A stretch of DNA of 64,000 nucleotides, taken from NCBI GenBank assembly GCA_022478985.1, contig JAKSZP010005647.1:23225-87224 (forward strand), given 5' to 3'. The stretch comes from Massospora cicadina. Its lineage: Eukaryota; Entomophthoromycota; Entomophthoromycetes; Entomophthorales; Entomophthoraceae. The notes beneath the pieces were generated by a model. That model saw only the letters and a program-made list of their open reading frames with translations, ran no database searches and had not been told where the DNA came from. Every line of letters starts with the position of its first letter. Within the stretch, counting starts at the first letter, position 1. Made by a program: the position numbers and the translations under genes. Positions 1-55,706 of the stretch are shown here, one piece after another.

Positions 1-1123
1 TTTTTGGTTGGGATAGGTCCCAAGTCAGTTTTGACTGGGGCTTGGGTGCAGCGATTGGGTGATGGATTCCCAAGTTGCTTCCACCGTGAAGGTCTCCATG
101 TCCTCCTGGCGTTGTGAGTGTGGGATGGTGGTGGTAGCCTTGGCCGCTTCCTTGGCTGCGGTCCTATGGGCCTGCTTGGCCTTCTTCCGCTCCTGCGGGG
201 AGATGGGCTTTACCAATAGGTAGCAGCCTTGTGCTCCTCACGGGAAAGCCTCCTTGGTGCTTGCGGTTGATTTGTAGTGCGCCTCTCCGCTGGCCATAGT
301 CGCCAAGGGGTGCTCTTGGAATGTGACGCCCTCTTTGATGGGGCATGCGTGTGCCTTATGGCTGAACATGTCACAGTGGGTGCAAATGGGGGCGCGCTGT
401 CCACGGTTACCCAGAATGGGTGGGTGGTGTGCCCTGCGATGTCAATAAAGGTGGAGTGCGGGATCTGGGTTAGGTCCTTCACGATCTCCTCAGTTGGGGT
501 CAGAACTGTGATGGCTTTGCTGGTGCACAGGTGTGGCATCAGCATGAAACGTTTCATTTTTGAAAGATTGTGTTTTCACCATATATGGCGAGACCATCTT
601 TCAGGTGTTGCTCCAAAATGTCACGTTTTACCATAGTAGGCAAAAAGTCAAACGTGAGGAAAATTTGGTTTGATTTTGTCCATCTGGTGCATTTAGTTTC
701 AATGACCCATTGCCCTTCAGGGAGGTCGACCACTATGCACACCGCTGCAGCCTCATCTGCTGCTATTTTGCTTTCAAAACCTAGGTCCAGCCAACCACGC
801 AACATGGAGTGAGGTGCAATGTACACCGCGGTTGGGAAAATTTTGTGTACATCTTCGCAAAATTTTTCCCATAGGGCCGTTTTTTGGATGTCCAGATACA
901 CACGGACTCCAAATTCCACCAAAGAAAGTGGCTGGGAATGTGGCGTGTTGATGTACTGGTTGCATCGTGCTTGCCACATGAGTATCTCCGGGGAAATTGT
1001 GACCGCCAGTTTTTTTAGATTTTTTTCTATTCCGCCGGATTCTCCAGGGCGTTTTTGAACGTTAGAGGCCGCGGGCCTTCCGCCTGCTCCTCTTGCCTTG
1101 CTTGCCCAACTGCTCCCAGACAT
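1..1123 (-). pseudogene. LINE ORF1-like nucleic-acid-binding protein, broken and cut by the window edge
   Basis: An open stretch at 554-1123 starts with ATG at 1121-1123. It carries an RRM-like block (WLDLGFESK, then LTFDFLP and LEQHLKDGL). The reading then shifts at 554-557 to the frame of 210-557, and shifts again at a C-run near 393 into a frame holding a classical CCHC zinc knuckle (CTHCDMFSHKAHAC, CX2CX4HX4C, 343-384). That frame has an in-frame TGA at 238-240 and then runs through a lysine/alanine-rich tail to a stop near 22. This order, RRM-like then CCHC, is usual for non-LTR retrotransposon ORF1 proteins, which coat the element RNA. The same domain recurs, much diverged, at 32676-34440 and 62641-64000. 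The class is inferred, since no reverse transcriptase is in reach here. Confidence 0.6.
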
Positions 1124-1640
1124 GGGCGCAGACTAATCCCCACTATGAGATTATCAAACTAGATTTAGTCTTGAATTGAATGGGTTGCAAAAGTGTTTGC
1201 AACGAGAAAGAAAAGTACCAATAGAATATGTAGCTTATCCAGAAAAGTATAATGGCACATCCTTTCCAGCCCAGTTGTTGGCATCTTAAGGAAAGGGAAA
1301 CATGGAAGAGTTTACCCAACTACTTTTACCAAATTTACAAATCTTTATAAGGTCCCTTAAAATCAGTCATCTCACATGTTCCAGTTGAACTTACCCACTG
1401 ACTTGATTGCTTTAATGGGTTTTAAGGCTTGGATATGACTGGACAATAAGCCCCAAATAGCTATGGCAGATTGGCTAAAAATATGCTGACAACAATTACT
1501 GGTGTGCAAATATTTGAGCGCCCTGTGATAAGGTGATATCAAGTCAGAATGGATAGTAATTGGATTAACTCCAAATAATGGAATAAGGCGATGTTGAGTC
1601 ATAACATATATATAGGAGATCTCCTCAAACTAAGGTGATA
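1124..1640. other. Unassigned AT-rich stretch
   Basis: No recognisable gene. It could be the 5' leader of the minus-strand LINE-like element to the left, followed by older DNA that served as the target for element A. A minus-strand open frame at 1372-1602 shows no motif I recognise. Confidence 0.4.
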
Positions 1641-23929: not shown

Positions 23930-25165
23930 TCCCCAATTTAACCTTTGACTGTGAAGGAGGAAGCGACCTTAGATTTTTGTGTTAAGGAGCAGTTAGCCAA
24001 AGGCGTGATTTTTCAGTGAACCTACCCAGTATGCTTCCCACTTCTCTTTGTGGAGAAAGCCAATGATATCTTATGCCCATGCATAGATATGGGAATCTCA
24101 ACAACGTCACAGTACCAGACTTACATCCATCCCAATGGACTTACAGATTGCACGTTATGTGAAGAAGGCGAGGTATTCTCCAAACTGGATTAAGTAAAAC
24201 GCGTTCAATCAGATCTGGATCAAAAAGGGCCAGGAGTGGTTAACTGCATTCTGTACAAGAAAAGGAATTTTCCAATTTTGGGTTATGCCATTTGTTCTTA
24301 AAAATGCCCCTGCTATCTTTCAACGCCATATTGATGTGGCTTTGGGGGATCTACTGAAAATATGTTTGGTATCTTTTTTTAGTACTAGATGGTCCCAACC
24401 TGAGGGGGGATTCATCGATGTAATATGTTTGGTATCTTACATGGATGATATTCTGGTGTTCTCCCCTGATAATGAGTTCCATGCAGTACACCTTTTGCAG
24501 GTGGTGGAGCGTTTGAGGGCAGCTGACCTTAAGTTAAAAATAAGTAAATGTGAATTCTTCAAGTCCCAGGTCACCTTCCTGGGCTACGTTATGTTTGACC
24601 AAGGGCACATGATAACTCCAGATAAGGAGGTGATTCGTTAGTATCCCACCCCAACTTCAGTTAAGGAATTGAGGAGTTTTTTGGGGACGTGTACGTTCCT
24701 TAAGAAATTCACACTAAACCTTTCTGAGGTGGCGGCGCTCCTATATAAGGCGAGTGGAGCTAAAGTGCTACAGTGGTCCTCAACTTTTAAAAATGCCTTT
24801 CAGGTGATAAAGTGCACCCTGCTGTCCACACCCATCCTTTGCCATGTCAACCCTAATAAAGATTTATTGTGGCTTCTGATGCCTCTAACTTCACCATAGC
24901 AGCGGCCCTATTACAAGTAGGTGAAGATGGAATAGAGCATCCAGTGGGATATTTTTCCAGGAAGATGTCTCTGTCTGAGTTAAACTATGCCATATATAAT
25001 AAAGAGTTACTAGCAGTGGTTGAGGCGCTGACCTTTTGGAGTCATCGCTTACATGGCTCATCCCAACCTTTCCGCATATGTACAGACAACCTTGCCTTGC
25101 TTTATTACCGCGCGCCTCATGTCTTGACCCCATGGCAAACCCGCCAGCATGAGACCCTAGCCTAA
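23930..25165 (+). pseudogene. Reverse transcriptase and RNase H of element F
   Basis: RT N-terminal pieces occur near 23940-24260. The core is open at 24285-24641 (VLKNAPAIFQRHIDVALGDL, then YMDDILVFSPDN, with both Asp codons in 24444-24449). Between these two motifs lies a 63-bp insertion (target duplication plus micro-element) that keeps the frame open. The connection is at 24669-24899 (RSFLGTCTFLKKFTLN). RNase H is at 24869-25165 (ASDASNFTIAAALLQ, GYFSRKMSLSELNYA, YNKELLAVVEAL). Confidence 0.9.
24376..24421 (-). mobile_element. Micro-insertion 1 (full-length type, A-tailed)
   Basis: 46 bp flanked by identical 17-bp copies at 24359-24375 and 24422-24438 (AATATGTTTGGTATCT plus one T shared with the tail). 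Read on the minus strand it begins ACATCGATGAATCCCC, continues through a C-run/G-run hairpin, and ends GACCATCTAGTACTA followed by an A-run. A long duplication and an A-tail are hallmarks of target-primed reverse transcription. The element adds 63 bp (21 codons), so the RT frame stays open. Confidence 0.8.
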
Positions 25166-25554
25166 TTTGTGTCTTTTATGAGTTTACAAGGGAAAGGAGA
25201 ATGGTTTGGCGGTTGCTTTGAGCTGCAACCCTGCACTATCTCCCAATCCTAAGGAGGTAGAGGTGTATAATACACATTTTATGATCCACCAGATAAGAGT
25301 GTGTCTCAACTTCCCTCTCCCTCATCCCGCATGCCAGCGCTTGCTCCTCTGGAAAATTTGGAGGAATATGGTAGGTTCATAAAGGTAGTCCTTTACAAGC
25401 TTTTGTTGGCTGAATATACTATGTTACTTGCTAAGAACGCGTTGAATCAGGAGGATATTTTTAGGGGTTATCACGTGAAGTATGAGATATGTGGTTTCAG
25501 GGGCGCTTATGGGTTCCCACCAGATCACTTCAGCTGGAAATCATCTGAGACCAT

Positions 25555-26427
25555 CATGACGGAATCACTGTTGGTCACCCTGGGAAGGCGAAGACTCTAG
25601 AGCTAATTTTCTGCACTAACAATTGGAAGGGGTTAGCCACACAGGTGGACAGATATTGTAAAGAGTTCCTGGTCTGCAACTAAATGAAACAGAATTTACA
25701 GCTGCTAGTGGGGCTGTTGGTACCAGTTCAAAAGGCAGAAGGGCCTTTAAATTTTCTATCAGTTTATTTTATTGTAGAATTGCCTGTATCTGATAGCTAC
25801 AATGCCATCGTAGTAGTGGTAGACTGTTTACAAAGTTTGCCCATTTTATTCCCTGCAGAACCACAGTAACCGTGGCTGAGATTACTAGGCTTTTTCGTCA
25901 CTCATATGTTTGCTTTTCACGGGGTCCCCCAAGAAATAACTAGTAATCATGGACCCCAGTTTACCTCCATCTTATGGGAAGAGTTGTGTAAGACTCTTCA
26001 AATTCGTTTTTTCCATTCATCTGCCTATCATCCCCAATCAAATGGGAGATTGAACGAATAAACAGTGCCTCAAACAGTTCTTGCAGTAATACACTGCTGC
26101 AGGTTATTCAGATTGGGTTTCCCATCTCCCCATGGCCCAATTCAGTTTATAACAACGCCCAACATGAATCAATCAGGTGTTCCCCCCTTCTTTGCCAACT
26201 ATGGCTTCAATCCCACCTTTAACATGGATCCCATTGTGGATCCAAGAAAGAAGCGGTGGTGGACTTTGCCAAAATGATCATGAAAGTACACCAGGGGGTG
26301 AGCACAAATTTAGATGCGGCCATGCAGACTTACAAGGAGAATGCTGATGGTAAGAGATGAGTTGGACCAGCGTACAAGGAAGAAGATCTTGTGATGCTGG
26401 ATGCTAAAAACATCCCAATCAGGCAAC
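25555..26427 (+). pseudogene. Integrase of element F
   Basis: Zinc-binding segment at about 25555-25690 (HHDGITVGHPGKAKTLEL, then CKEFLVCN). Catalytic core in broken frames: FLSVYFIVELPVSDSYNAI (about 25757-25800, first Asp replaced by Tyr), EITSNHGPQFTSILWEEL (second Asp now Asn) and QSNGRLNE. The segment VMLDAKNIPIRQP stops at the border of the solo LTR at 26433. Confidence 0.78.
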
Positions 26428-26432
26428 CATAC

Positions 26433-27255
26433 TGTCAGACATTTGCCTTCTCAGCTGCAGAGGAAGAATATCTTGGGTCAAAATCAGCCAAAATGGGAAA
26501 ATGTTGGCCATTTACAAGTTTATGATGAACCTGAAAGCAGTTTTAATAATAAAAATGTTATAATCGACCAAAAGACCCTGGTCAATTCTCAGGAACCTTG
26601 CAAATTGGGGTAACATCATTTTAAATCCTGCACGGGCAATAGGCCAAAAATTGAGCAGTCAGATTACTCTGACCACACAATGGACCTTGTGATAACCATT
26701 GGAAGGTACTCCCCCAGCCACAACCAGGTCCTTTTAAGCACTGATGCGGGGACTACACCCTTTTATAGGCGTGGTTGAGGTTCCCCAAGGTAAAATTATT
26801 TTATCAAATGGTGATTGGTTGAAGTACATCAAAACACTACAACATGGGTACATTATGTCCCAAAACCTCATCCCATCTGTTATTTTGCCAAAGAAGTAAC
26901 TCAAATTTCCCAACATCGATGAATCCCCCCCTTGGGTTGGGACCATCTAGTACTAAAAAAAAAAGTAACTCAAATTTCCCAAGATCTGATAGGCTAATAT
27001 ACCATATTTTCAAATTTGGAATGCATCTAAGCTAATCTAACCTATCCTTGAATTCCTCCCCCTCCGACCTTCAGTGCAGTTTAAATAATGATCAGTCAGA
27101 TATCAAAAGGGATCGCTTTTCCTTTTTACCCTCACACTTCTAATAAAAAATCTAAAAACCCAAAACTTTATAAGTGCTTATTTTTATTTTATTAAAACTT
27201 TTGTGAGATTCAGTGGTGTAAGCACCAGCAAGCATAAGTAAGCTGCATTCCTACA
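26433..27255 (+). repeat. Putative solo LTR within element F
   Basis: 823 bp starting TGTCAGACATTTG and ending CATTCCTACA. It lies between the integrase segment IPIRQP and its continuation KKLVLKRIG (27261 on). In element C the same two pieces are contiguous (QPCRKLVLKRVGPF). The flanking pentamers are CATAC (26428-26432) and CATGT (27256-27260), alike except for two transitions. No partner LTR is in the window, so the family is unknown. Micro-insertion 2 lies inside it. Confidence 0.55.
26914..26963 (+). mobile_element. Micro-insertion 2 (full-length type, A-tailed)
   Basis: 50 bp with identical 19-bp flanks AGTAACTCAAATTTCCCAA (26895-26913 and 26964-26982). It begins CATCGATGAATCC, the same 5' boundary as micro-insertion 1. 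It has a C7 run, then TTGGGTTGGGACC, and ends ATCTAGTACTA followed by 9-10 A. It lies inside the putative solo LTR at 26433-27255, so it is younger than that insertion. Confidence 0.8.
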
Positions 27256-27728
27256 CATGTAAAAAACTGGTACTGAAGAGGATTGGCCTTATCACATTGT
27301 CAGAAAGATGGGCCACACCTCATACCAGTTGGATCTCCCCTCCTCGTTTTAAATCTTTTCAGTCTTCTATGAAAGCAAGCTTACGTTTTTTGAGGGCCCC
27401 CTACCAGAGACTCCCAAGGCTTATCTTGTGGATGGGGCACCAGAGTGGGAAGTGGATGATACTGTAGTATTTTGTCAGGTAAGAAGAAGGCTCAAATATC
27501 TTTTATCCTGGAAGGGAATGATGCAGCGGAGAACAGTTTGGTCCCAGCATGTGACTGCACCTATGCCCAAAATCTAATTGAAGCATTCTACAAACATTTC
27601 CCCAAGGTCACAGGATCTAAGTCCAAGCAAGCCATTGCTGCCATGAAGTTAATCCCTGCCCACAAAAACTTTTCCCTGGGCAAATACCCCTGTAGGGGGG
27701 ATGGAGCCCAAAAAAGGGAAGAGGGTAA
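27256..27728 (+). pseudogene. Integrase C-terminus and chromodomain of element F
   Basis: Resumes with KLVLKRIG, shifts frame to PYHIVRKMGHTSYQLDL, then has a linker and a chromodomain (PEWEVDDTVVFCQVRR, LKYLLSWKGNDAAENS; about 27437-27600). The tail AAMKLIPAHKNFSLGKYPC leads into the polypurine tract. It is homologous in order and motif to the pol end of element C. Confidence 0.8.
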
Positions 27729-28582
27729 TGTCATGTTTACACGACTTAATTGAGGGCTCCAACAACAAAGACAAGGCTGGGTGGCAGGAGATCCAACAGG
27801 TCAAGTTGCAGAACCTTCCTGACCTATAGCATACCTTGGACTAATTCAGGGTACGGGCAAGATATGCCCAGGTTGGTCCAGGTGAGGTGCATAATGCCAT
27901 GCCCCTTGTTACAGCCTTGGCATTAAAATGGACAAGTTATCAATTAAATGATGATAGCTCAATTCAGTTACTTGGTGAGCAGGGGTTCAGAACCCATTCA
28001 ATTTATTACATTTCCACCTTGGGTCAGCCTTGACTTCAATCAATCACTCACGTTTGATCAATTTCAAAGTATAATACCCTGTCAGATGAAAGCATGCACT
28101 TATTAGTGCACATGGGCTTAACACTACTTTCACCAATGGATGATTCTCCCATTTTTGTTTAATTATGATTCTTCAATACCAACCTTCCTCATTGGTTACC
28201 TTCCCTTTAAATAAACCCCTCATTAGTTTATATTTTTCTTATGTTAACTTGGATGAACCTGTGTGCAGACCTTTTTGAGGAGGTCTCACCATCAGGGACA
28301 CTGCTGGGCCACCCAGATTCCATCCAGACTGAGGCACCCAAACACTCTAGCCCTGACTAAAGCTCAGTTATGAAACCCCTTTGGGAACATTCAAGTCTTA
28401 TTGTTTGTTTGATCTCTATTAATCTTTAACATGTTAACCACCCTCACCCTATGTCACTTTAGTCAAGCACCCTTTGCAGGGCTATTTTTCTTTTAATACT
28501 GATGACTAATTCCCTTGCATTGGGCCTGTGAACCATGCGCCATATTGCCAGTAATAGGAGAGTTATAGGCACTCTCCTGACA
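27729..28582 (+). repeat. 3' LTR of element F
   Basis: 854 bp, from TGTCATGTTTACACGAC to CTCTCCTGACA, paired with 21736-22591. More stops interrupt the LTR frame here than in the left copy. Confidence 0.9.
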
Positions 28583-28883
28583 AAACATACACTACTGCAC
28601 AGTATATAGTTTCTCCTTAGAACTCATTTGATCTTCTATGACAGTTCAACCTCTATCTCATGACAATAGCAATTCTACAGAATATTATATATAGAAAAGC
28701 TACACAATAACCAATTCATCCAATTCCTGGTATAGTAAATCTTTACTCCAGGAACAACATCTAAAATACTAGATAAAACTAGGGAAAAAGGTAATCCTTT
28801 AATAGGATAATTATGAGAAATATTTATAGTCAATCTTTTAGCCACAGAACAGTAATGTCCTATTTCAGGAGCACAATCAATAG

Positions 28884-28935
28884 GGGTACAATGGGTATAA
28901 TGGGTACAATGTGTACAATAGGCATAATTGTACCA
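28884..28935 (+). repeat. Short imperfect tandem repeat
   Basis: About five units of nine to ten bases related to GGTACAATG, ending GGCATAATTGTACC. The minus strand translates as repeated Cys-Thr-His, which I regard as incidental. Confidence 0.6.
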
Positions 28936-29603
28936 TTTACAGGAAAAGCCAAAGGGTAGAACAGTCACGTGACGATTCTGGAATGGCTTGGAGGCTCAAA
29001 AGATGGGATGTATAAGTGGTATGGGTTGATTCAGACACTCACATTTGTTCTAATAATGCCCGAATAATGAAAAGGTGCAAAAAGTAGTCATCCTAAGTCG
29101 AATCAACATTATTGACCGCAGCTATAAACGATCTGAAGAGTGATTTGTTGCGTTTAAGCCCTAATCTGTAACCCTTATTCGAGGTAAGCCAACCAACCTT
29201 AATCTTTAACTGTATAACCTTGTCGCTATATAATTTTAGGGACCCAACTAAGATTTACACTAAAAATATATGGTTTTTGCAAACTGGTGTTTAATTTTTG
29301 CAAATTAACAGTAAAATAAAAACTTTATTTTGATACTGCTTGGCAAAAATATTATAAGGGCATATACGATGTAAGTAACTTATTGCTAGAAGCGATATTA
29401 TTTAATTTATTAGCGCCCTATTGTATAGAAGCTAGTTATTTAGGTTGGTGCGTAACGGCGGAGCTTGATAAACTTTATAATATAATCCTGATGAGACCTT
29501 ACTGTAGTTAGTTGAGTAATTAAGCTTAGTTCGAATAAAAGAAGTTGAGTAATTAAGCGTATTGTAAAAGTGAGAGTTTGTAGTTTATAGTGTTCTATCC
29601 TTT

Positions 29604-29621
29604 GACCATCTAGTGCTAAAA
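29604..29621 (+). mobile_element. Micro-insertion 3 (5'-truncated, A-tailed)
   Basis: Only GACCATCTAGTGCTAAAA, flanked by perfect 17-bp copies of ATAGTGTTCTATCCTTT (29587-29603 and 29622-29638). It matches the 3' end of micro-insertions 1 and 2, with one base change (TAGTGCTA for TAGTACTA). The 5' truncation with an intact 3' end and A-tail is what interrupted reverse transcription leaves. Confidence 0.8.
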
Positions 29622-29666
29622 ATAGTGTTCTATCCTTTATTCTTTTTAAGTGCAATATTCTACTTT

Positions 29667-29680
29667 TTTAGTACTAGATG
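29667..29680 (-). mobile_element. Micro-insertion 4 (5'-truncated, A-tailed)
   Basis: On the minus strand CATCTAGTACTAAA, with the A-tail merging into the flanking T-run. It lies between perfect 17-bp copies of GTGCAATATTCTACTTT (29650-29666 and 29681-29697). It is the most truncated of the four and is opposite in orientation to micro-insertion 3, which lies 45 bp away. Confidence 0.78.
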
Positions 29681-31040
29681 GTGCAATATTCTACTTTAAT
29701 TCTTTTATCTACACTGTTTCCTTTACGGCAATCTTTTTTACATACTGAGCAGAATAATCGCTACCACCTCACTAACTGATGAATATTGTATTTTATTAAA
29801 GGGGTTTAATTTTACTGTGCCGTTTCACTTTTAAAATAGGGTTTGATTTGGCTAAGCTTTGTGGTTTATTCTGTCTTTTTTGTACGTCATATCTAGTTTG
29901 TGTTACCGGTAAGTTATTAAAGTTTAGCAATTAAAAGACATGCTTTTTGGGGTTTGGTATCCCATGCTCCAAAATCTTCTATCTATTTTGCGTTGAATGT
30001 TTTAGAAAGGTTTATTTATGTTCTTCCTTGTCATCGGCTAGAAATTGTTTATAAAACTTTCACGCTTTTTGGATTGGGTATAATTTTTATATATTTGCAA
30101 AAAATGCTTTGATTTTTGAAGTGTTTTTAAGTGTGGATTAAACAATCAATCTTGGTTTATATATGATTTGTTTAGGAGTTTTACTGACGAAATATTTTGT
30201 TTTGGAGGCTTATAATAAAAAAGAGCGATTTAGATTTATTTAGACCAACTGGCTAAGTAGATCAAACTTACAGTATTGGATATTAAGTTTGACGAAAGGT
30301 ATTTTTTTAGCTTAATTAACTACTGCAAACGTCTTAATGACATTGGCAAGATAATTCTGATTCTTGCTTGCCTTAACATGTCCTATGTTTATTCTGCTTT
30401 GCTTCTAGATTTATAATTCAGATATAATATCACTCAAAATCGAGCTTTACAGACTTATTTTTCGCTCTAAGAGCTCGGTTTAAGGAAGGTTAGCTTATAA
30501 AACACCTTTATGTCATAAATACAAAATTCCTTTTTCTTTAAAACCAAAATAAACTACAACAATAATTGTGTTTCTTTTAATCAAACCTAGTTTCGTTTGT
30601 TTCTATATAATTTTTTATATTTTGATCCCGCTTACGATGAAATTGGTTACTTTTATTGAATGTTCGCCTTTATAGTTCCTTTATTAGCTTGTCACTTAAT
30701 TTTTAATTTGATTTTTAGTAAAGTAGGTACAACCGATATGAGTCAACATTTATTGTTTTTATTAGTTAAGTTGTATTATGTTTTTAGTATTTTTAAACAT
30801 TATCTGATTCAAGGTTTTAATAACTTGATTTTAAGTTATACCATTTGGATAAACCATATTTTTATTAACAGATAGTAGGATTAAAACTCTAAGTATAATC
30901 AACTTATAAAATAGCTATATTTTGAATTTTTAACAAGTCATATATGCAACTAGGCTCAGGCCTTTAATTTCTTGATATTCTTCGGTTTGCAAGCTATGCG
31001 ATAGCGTACTACCACTCTGAGTACTAATCGTTGTTTTAGT

Positions 31041-53548: not shown

Positions 53549-54160
53549 TGTAAAAAAAAGTTTGCACCAATATCCCACAAGGGAATCGGGAAATAAGAGC
53601 CATATAACTGACTCAACTAGAGACCAGCCCACCAGAGCCAATCCCCGAACCCATCCACCAAGTTCCACCATTGCCACGTGCCCTCAGATCCCTGTCTTCA
53701 CGCTGTAGGAGGATACCGTGTAGCACGCCAACGCCACACCATTCCCACTATGGGAGCCCATGCCTTCAACCTGATATTTTATATCAAATAAAATATTCTT
53801 TTCAATTCCGCCAACAAATCTTTATTTGATTTTAGGATTTATTGTAGAAGACTCAACTGGCTATTAAAGCCAGCCTATCCTCAAATATATAGTGCATTTG
53901 CAAATATAAAATAGGCTTTCCACTATGCCAAGCTCTCCTGAACTGTCCCACACATCTTGGGCAAAGATTCCATTCCCCATGGAATCATCATCTGAAACAC
54001 TTGTAAGTCTGACATCATATTGACTCAGATGAAATTCAGCTTTGGTCTGTCAAATTTCCCTCACTCAGATTCCTTCTCATTCAGGTTTCTTCTTATATTT
54101 GTATCTAGTACTAACTGATCCATAGCAATGTACAGATCAGGTACCACCTGATCTGTTACA
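53549..54160 (-). repeat. 3' LTR of element D
   Basis: 612 bp. On the minus strand it starts TGTAACAGATCAGGTGG and ends CTTTTTTTTACA. Paired with 55096-55706. Confidence 0.9.
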
Positions 54161-55095: not shown

Positions 55096-55706
55096 TGTAA
55101 CAAACAATTTTGCACCAATATCCCACAAGGGAATCAGGAAGTAAGAGCCAAATAACTGACTCCACTAGAGACCATCCCGCCAGATCCAATCCCTGACCCA
55201 TCCGCTGAGTTCCGCCATTGCCACGTGCCCTCAGATCACTGTCCACATGCTGTAGGAGGATATTGTGTAGCACTCCAACGCCACACCATGCCCACTATGG
55301 GAGCCCATGCCTTCGATCCAATACTTTATATTAAATAAAATATTCTTTTTGATTCCGCCAACAAATCTTTATTTGATTTTAGGATCTATTGTAGAAGATT
55401 CAACTGGCTATTCAAGCCAGCCTATCCTTAGATATATAGTGCATTTGCAAATATAAAATAGGCTTTCACAATGCCAAGCTCTCTTGAACCATCCCACACA
55501 TCTCAGGCGAAGATCCCATTCCCCATGGAATCATCATCTGAAACTCTTGTAAGTCTGACATCATACAGACTTGGATGTGATTCAGCTTCAGTCCGTCAAA
55601 TTTCCCTTACCCTGATTCCTTCTCATTCAGGTTTCTTCTTATATTTGGATCTAGTACTAATTAATCCATAGAAATTTATGGATCAGGTACCACCTGATCT
55701 GTTACA
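55096..55706 (-). repeat. 5' LTR of element D
   Basis: 611 bp, ending GTTTGTTACA on the minus strand. Just inside, 55079-55095 reads TTAGACTCAACTCAACT at the primer binding position. The end of the LTR encodes VIWLLLPDSLVGYW, resembling TWILLPNSFVAHW at the end of the element A LTR. Confidence 0.9.

Follow-up and report, generated by a model that had tools for sequence, protein, structure and literature searches.

Micro-insertions in the Massospora cicadina genome match the 3' end of an L1-like LINE and include a sharp 42-nt class

The DNA analyzed here, referred to as the window, is a stretch of 64,000 nucleotides of the fungus Massospora cicadina (GenBank assembly GCA_022478985.1, contig JAKSZP010005647.1, positions 23,225 to 87,224; part of contig 4922). 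It contains four A-tailed insertions of 14 to 50 bp, each between perfect direct repeats. Judged by sequence, these micro-insertions represent the 3' end of an L1-like long interspersed nuclear element (LINE) of 6.45 kb, designated F1, and not an independent micro-sized short interspersed nuclear element (SINE), because the 42 nt of the unit are contiguous with the 3' end of the LINE and the two main loop variants are common to both. The copies fall into distinct length classes, one of them with a sharp 5' end. As an explanation of the whole, we tentatively favor target-primed reverse transcription by the F1 machinery that would yield aborted short copies and, in addition, copies of a stub RNA of about 42 nt whose 5' end is set by a hairpin.

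The longer parent element that the original prediction suggested looking for was found in the long copy L119. When this copy was extended to 8.2 kb, a LINE unit of about 6.45 kb was seen between the two sides of a 21-bp duplication, with profile matches above the cut-off to Exo_endo_phos (PF03372, E 5.5e-9) and RVT_1 (PF00078, E 8.1e-34). On the reverse strand of L119, the order is an 841-residue stop-to-stop frame without a Pfam match, an endonuclease piece, a reverse transcriptase (RT) piece, and, at the C-terminal end, a piece whose zf-RVT match is below threshold; the reading frames are interrupted in this copy. Among the best 120 of 1,524 matches, the named RT relatives included zygomycete fungi (Rhizopus, Mucor, Lichtheimia), other fungi, oomycetes, and a plant entry. 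The label L1 follows the name used for this species in PMC10515909 and is not derived from an RT tree. The section of that paper on L1 LINEs gives them as 6.3% of the genome and unique among the fungi compared, and the MCPNR19 assembly is described in PMC9584336 as 1.488 Gb in 19,694 scaffolds with 92% transposable elements. In L119, about 64 nt separate the last stop codon of the LINE from the tail. In the same copy (about 235-265, minus strand), the LINE stop UAG falls in a predicted hairpin loop (CGCCU..GGCUC-UUAG-GAGCC..GGCG), and the 3' untranslated region (UTR) is only about 64 nt long.

The 42 nt of the micro-insertions run without a break into the 3' UTR of this LINE. Among the 42-nt copies, 15 carry the loop variant TTGGG and 4 carry TCAGG, with 1 untyped; among the LINE copies, 5 carry TTGGG, 3 TCAGG, and 1 TCGGG. 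The discrete 5' end of the unit, and the fact that most exact 42-mers lie outside the LINE, would suit the originally proposed micro-retroelement, taken as an independent unit that has a small-RNA gene of its own and the same 3' end as the LINE, but the contiguity with the LINE 3' UTR and the common loop variants speak against it. No box A/box B pattern was found in the 42-nt unit, no tRNA gene in positions 24000-30000, and no Rfam match in the window; no search was made for a source locus free of duplication and tail. We consider such an element very unlikely. A SINE with a tRNA-type promoter was rejected on the same three negative results. What stands of the original claim that a discrete small RNA is mobilized is its fit to the 42-nt class, as a 3' stub of the LINE rather than as a separate element.

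The micro-insertions are abundant in the genome, of which 1.47 Gb in 16,968 contigs was searched. The common 3' end, CATCTAGTACTA, was found 34,869 times as an exact match (17,391 + 17,478), compared with 186 times for the reversed pattern, and the exact 42-mer was found 1,854 times, compared with 0 for its control. The LINE bases AATAA stand directly 5' of the 42-mer in 655 cases. The other 1,199 (65%) lack an exact AATAA, a number in which LINE copies substituted within AATAA are also counted. In a sequence-blind scan of 301,637 bases, most of them chosen because the families are present there, we found 93 A-tailed inserts flanked by exact direct repeats of 11 bp or more, compared with 2 when the bases were read backwards, and 91 of the 93 belonged to the F1 family or its sister. 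Within the window, the 12-mer with 2 mismatches gave 8 matches against 4.28 expected, which is weak evidence by itself.

The length classes were determined from the first 100 listed CATCTAGTACTA matches, which were taken in contig order without selection for length and were all read. Seventy-one copies were short (12-29 nt), 20 were about 42 nt long and form a class of their own, and 9 extended into the LINE. Thus, far from every copy running on into a LINE or SINE, only 9 of 100 did so, and a discrete unit some 42 nt long was confirmed by these 20 copies and by the 1,199 of 1,854 exact 42-mers without AATAA before them. The duplication score was at least 11 in 19 of the 20 copies of the 42-nt class and in 67 of the 71 shorter ones (86 of 91 together), so that, as anticipated, further copies in the genome do carry target duplications; the copies below this score were L090, L045, L066, L069, and L114. 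In the swapped-pair control, 0.3% of 1,979 pairs reached a score of 11, and the null maximum was 13. Chance repeats as the origin were rejected by the reversed-pattern, swapped-pair, and backwards-read controls.

The target duplications had a median length of 16 bp and were perfect in 66 of 86 copies. The first base of the duplication was A in 82 and the second in 72 of the 86, and the preceding base was A in only 2, although the A-tail biases the alignment toward A at the start of the duplication. An A-run of at least 4, target A included, followed TACT in 85 of the 86 copies. Long target duplications, A-tails, and 5' truncation are marks of LINEs. Together with the A-rich target start and a parent that has an endonuclease and an RT, they support LINE-driven target-primed reverse transcription, which had been put forward from the window alone.

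The lengths of the 67 short copies with a duplication score of at least 11 were 12 (8 copies), 13 (9), 14 (8), 15 (4), 16 (8), 17 (4), 18 (4), 19 (5), 20 (6), 21 (2), 22 (1), 23 (3), 24 (1), 25 (1), 28 (1), and 29 nt (2). The minimum of 12 nt is the size of the search word, and shorter copies do occur: L002 has one of 9 nt and L069 one of 5 nt (TACTA), both flanked by 16-bp repeats. Microhomology was considered at 59 short-copy junctions, of which 15 showed an overlap of 1-4 bases, 27 no overlap, and 17 extra bases; no formal expectation was computed for these counts.

Ordinary random 5' truncation of the LINE does occur, since truncated copies with duplications were found in L008 (about 506 nt, score 14) and L012 (about 395 nt, score 15), and the second family described below consists mostly of such copies. 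However, the F1 lengths form no continuum (71 at 12-29 nt, at most 1 at 30-40 nt, 20 at the sharp end, and 9 longer), and 0 of the 100 copies start between the 42-nt class and the flank limit, which is about 400 nt for most. Random truncation is thus a highly improbable account of the F1 copies. One copy with an internal deletion (L047) was classed as a LINE copy.

The positions at which the short copies end follow a predicted hairpin in the LINE RNA. In the order in which the RT meets it, the template reads UAGUACUA, CAUC, AC, a G-run, the loop, a C-run, AAU, and GAUG. In the predicted fold, GAUG pairs with CAUC, and the C-run pairs with the G-run. The original prediction had described an 8-nt palindrome at each end of the unit with a C-run/G-run hairpin between them; the pairing of the runs is likewise predicted here, enclosed by GAUG/CAUC, and neither palindrome pairs with itself in that fold. 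The short copies end in the 3' arm, the loop, or the C-run, almost never beyond. At most 1 (L059) of 29 survivors ended at 30-40 nt, whereas 15.4 would have done so had the stop rate stayed as before (P about 1e-8 in a simple model with a constant stop rate). An enzyme that struggled while opening the stem and then ran freely would give this distribution of ends. For the shortest copies, aborted copying is the best interpretation, and abortion by the RT is the likely cause of the 12-29-nt class.

In our proposal, the RT of the LINE would start at the A-tail of the LINE RNA, copy UAGUACUA, and then enter the hairpin. In most events it would give up within the 3' arm, the loop, or the C-run, leaving 12-29 nt or less. 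Once past the hairpin, the copy would run far into the LINE or, more often, end 5 nt before the stem.

This last end defines the sharp class. Nineteen of its 20 copies start with ACAT, 5 nt before the hairpin stem, and the exception, L059, starts deeper. The length of the C-run varies among the copies, and the 5' end does not move with it. Read by eye, 6 of the 20 begin exactly at that A after the duplication, 3 have one extra base, and 2 have two; in 7 the start is uncertain by one position, as A is the last base of the duplication, and L090 has no clear duplication. The extra bases of L058, L106, and L118 differ from the LINE sequence. A 5' end this sharp, now and then with extra bases, resembles run-off where a template ends, and for this reason we favor a discrete 3' stub RNA. 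On these DNA copies, the template of the 42-nt class was probably a second RNA, a LINE 3' stub of about 42 nt plus the A-tail that would start with ACAUCGAUG.

How such a stub would be made is a separate matter. Its most likely maker would be a 5'-3' exonuclease of the Xrn1/Rat1 type, stalled at the hairpin or at a bound LINE protein, although we consider this less probable than not. In the Xrn1-resistant RNAs (xrRNAs) of mosquito-borne flaviviruses, according to the part of PMC5760640 consulted, Xrn1 stops 5-6 nt ahead of the P1 stem, at sites precise to one or two nucleotides. In its fullest form, the reading would be retrotransposition of an mRNA decay intermediate, in which the hairpin-protected stub of about 42 nt stays on the LINE machinery and is copied from end to end; this we regard as somewhat doubtful.

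A second family, F2, is also present. Its 3' end, CCACTAGTGCTA, was found 5,891 times genome-wide, compared with 46 for the control, and no RT was identified upstream of it. The F2 stem is GUGG/CCAC where that of F1 is GAUG/CAUC, so that two of the four pairs differ in both of their partners. When 17 F1 and 12 F2 ends, cut at the stub start beforehand, were folded to a consensus family by family, the stem in each case followed five unpaired bases. Forty F2 copies listed by BLAST comprised 24 long copies, 10 stub-like copies, and 6 outside the pattern and unscored. Forty unselected copies, out of 100 listed, comprised 33 long copies, 3 stub-like copies, and 4 shorter ones, with a duplication score of at least 11 in 3 of the 7 that were not long. 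F2 is for the most part an ordinary, older family, so the mass of micro-copies is characteristic of F1.

Among the 74 F2 copies scored overall, 13 were stub-like. Nine of the 13 read GATGCG, and a base other than A precedes this motif in 8 of the 9 (counted by eye); in the ninth, L162, the preceding A belongs to its duplication. The other 4 have a different base instead of G or overlap with the duplication. The F2 stub end lies five bases before GUGG and directly after AATAAA, and the F1 stub holds the last A of AATAAA. The distance from the stub end to the stem is 5 in both families, that to AATAAA is off by one, and that to the 3' end is 42 versus 45. These few copies support the view that the stub end keeps its offset to the stem in the second family.

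The sharp end could also have another source. The RT could copy full-length LINE RNA and be stopped at the 42-nt position by a CPSF-like protein on the poly(A) signal AAUAAA, with the shorter copies aborted in the hairpin. The stub end does coincide with the last A of AATAAA in F1 and the first base after it in F2, and the shorter copies need no stub RNA in any case. On the other hand, the end shifts by one relative to AATAAA between F1 and F2 while it is constant relative to the stem. The next template base, which would be A, is not in excess in F1 (4 of 19, with a background of 30%), and the three copies with extra bases foreign to the LINE behave as at the end of a template. We regard such a roadblock, the main rival, as rather unlikely, but the data do not decide firmly between it and a stub RNA. 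A ribosome at the stop codon as the roadblock was set aside, as the distance seemed too long.

If a stub RNA was the template, cleavage by an endonuclease at a site 5 nt ahead of the hairpin, with no stalled exonuclease, would give an equally sharp end. However, no match to a ribozyme or other Rfam family was found in L119 up to E 5, and the letters at the cut site differ between F1 (AATAA/ACATC) and F2 (AATAAA/GATGC). This origin of the stub appears improbable. A catalogued ribozyme in the LINE was likewise rejected.

Several observations weigh against a hairpin-set stub made by a stalled exonuclease. The hairpin fold is no stabler than that of shuffled sequence (z 0.14 and -0.53), and neither the hairpin nor the unit has an Rfam match (window at the gathering score; L119 up to E 5). 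The hairpin is small, whereas xrRNAs are elaborate folds, and other xrRNAs do not share the 5-6-nt distance (PMC5760640, in the part consulted). In L056 and L100, the extra bases (AA and A, respectively) match the LINE sequence. In F2, 33 of 40 unselected copies are ordinary long ones and only 8 of the 13 stub-like copies reach a duplication score of 11 or more, and the argument that the end follows the stem and not the hexamer hangs on one nucleotide and a few F2 stubs.

The F1 copies share with 5'-truncated L1-type LINE insertions the target duplications (median 16 bp), the A-tails, the common 3' end, the 5' truncation, and a parent with an endonuclease and an RT. They differ in that most are shorter than 30 nt and a fifth have one sharp 5' end. 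For comparison, the two shortest mutagenic mouse L1 insertions given in the part of one review consulted were 81 and 180 bp (PMC6466679). The likeness to SINEs with LINE-derived 3' tails lies in the short unit, the discrete 5' end, and the 3' end common with a LINE; but here there is a tail only, and no head from a small-RNA gene and no promoter boxes were found, while SINEs, as described in the part of PMC7245038 consulted, need a head derived from a small RNA gene. The subgenomic flavivirus RNA left by Xrn1 begins at a discrete 5' end some 5 nt ahead of a stem, which the putative F1 stub would share in geometry only, whereas the F1 unit has a plain hairpin without an Rfam match, and its stub is deduced from DNA copies. 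The L1 LINEs reported for M. cicadina (PMC10515909) come from the same host and are presumably the same elements; the section of that paper on L1 LINEs mentions neither micro-insertions nor a discrete 3' unit. In the open-licence literature searched, which is a thin basis for novelty, we found no LINE with most copies below 30 nt and a fifth at one hairpin-set 5' end.

Very short LINE stubs are usually unrecognizable, and here the distinctive 3' end and the intact duplications reveal the low end of the length range. The genomic copies can be read like a footprint assay in which a LINE RT works on its native template. The footprint suggests where the RT gives up, that passage of the hairpin is decisive, and that either another type of template or an abrupt block exists. 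If the decay-stub reading were true, LINE proteins and mRNA decay would meet on one RNA, the insertions would record the halt site of an exonuclease at single-nucleotide precision, and we would know of no shorter discrete retroposon than this stub, with its thousands of copies. Under any of these readings, insertions that add 12-50 bp and a duplication form a large and easily overlooked class in this genome.

The four insertions in the window represent both the 42-nt class and the ultra-short copies. Insertion 1 (24376..24421, minus strand) is a 42-nt class stub with an A-tail and the loop variant TCAGG, between the two sides of a 17-bp duplication (24359..24375 and 24422..24438). Insertion 2 (26913..26962, plus strand) is a 42-nt class stub with an A-tail, the loop variant TTGGG, and seven C, between the sides of a 19-bp duplication (26894..26912 and 26963..26981). 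Insertion 3 (29604..29621, plus strand) is the ultra-short copy GACCATCTAGTGCTA with an A-tail, with one substitution in its 3' end, and its 17-bp duplication lies at 29587..29603 and 29622..29638. Insertion 4 (29667..29680, minus strand) is the ultra-short copy CATCTAGTACTA with an A-tail, flanked by a 17-bp duplication at 29650..29666 and 29681..29697. The repeats, to which no strand applies, are perfect at all four sites, as had been predicted, and measured 17-19 bp. Three of the insert positions were exact, and that of insertion 2 had been placed one base off, at 26914-26963.

Insertion 1 lies within an RT frame that, judged by its motif, is that of a Ty3-type reverse transcriptase. The frame continues once the insert and one repeat are removed. 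It is also open with the insert in place, so the frame alone is no proof of the empty site; the empty-site check consisted of the frame across site 1 only.

Elsewhere in the window, at 54102-54113 and 55648-55659, the 12-mer occurs with a single mismatch (TATCTAGTACTA and GATCTAGTACTA), as very short copies or by chance. A link to 5.8S rRNA was considered through CATCGATGAA, which may resemble it over 10 nt.

Some sites outside the window carry more than one insert. In L012 (about 1300-1410, plus strand), a 42-nt stub is followed by an insert of about 10 nt, and in L030 (about 1480-1600, plus strand), a 42-nt stub is followed by a shorter variant ending in CCTGCTAGTACTA; each has a triple target repeat, and these sites were therefore hit twice. 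In L014 (about 1513-1669), two 42-nt stubs lie in opposite orientation within about 160 bp, a pair that resembles the close pair at 29604-29680 of the window. In L079 (about 355-430), the tail of the stub reads A8-C-A5, with an internal C.

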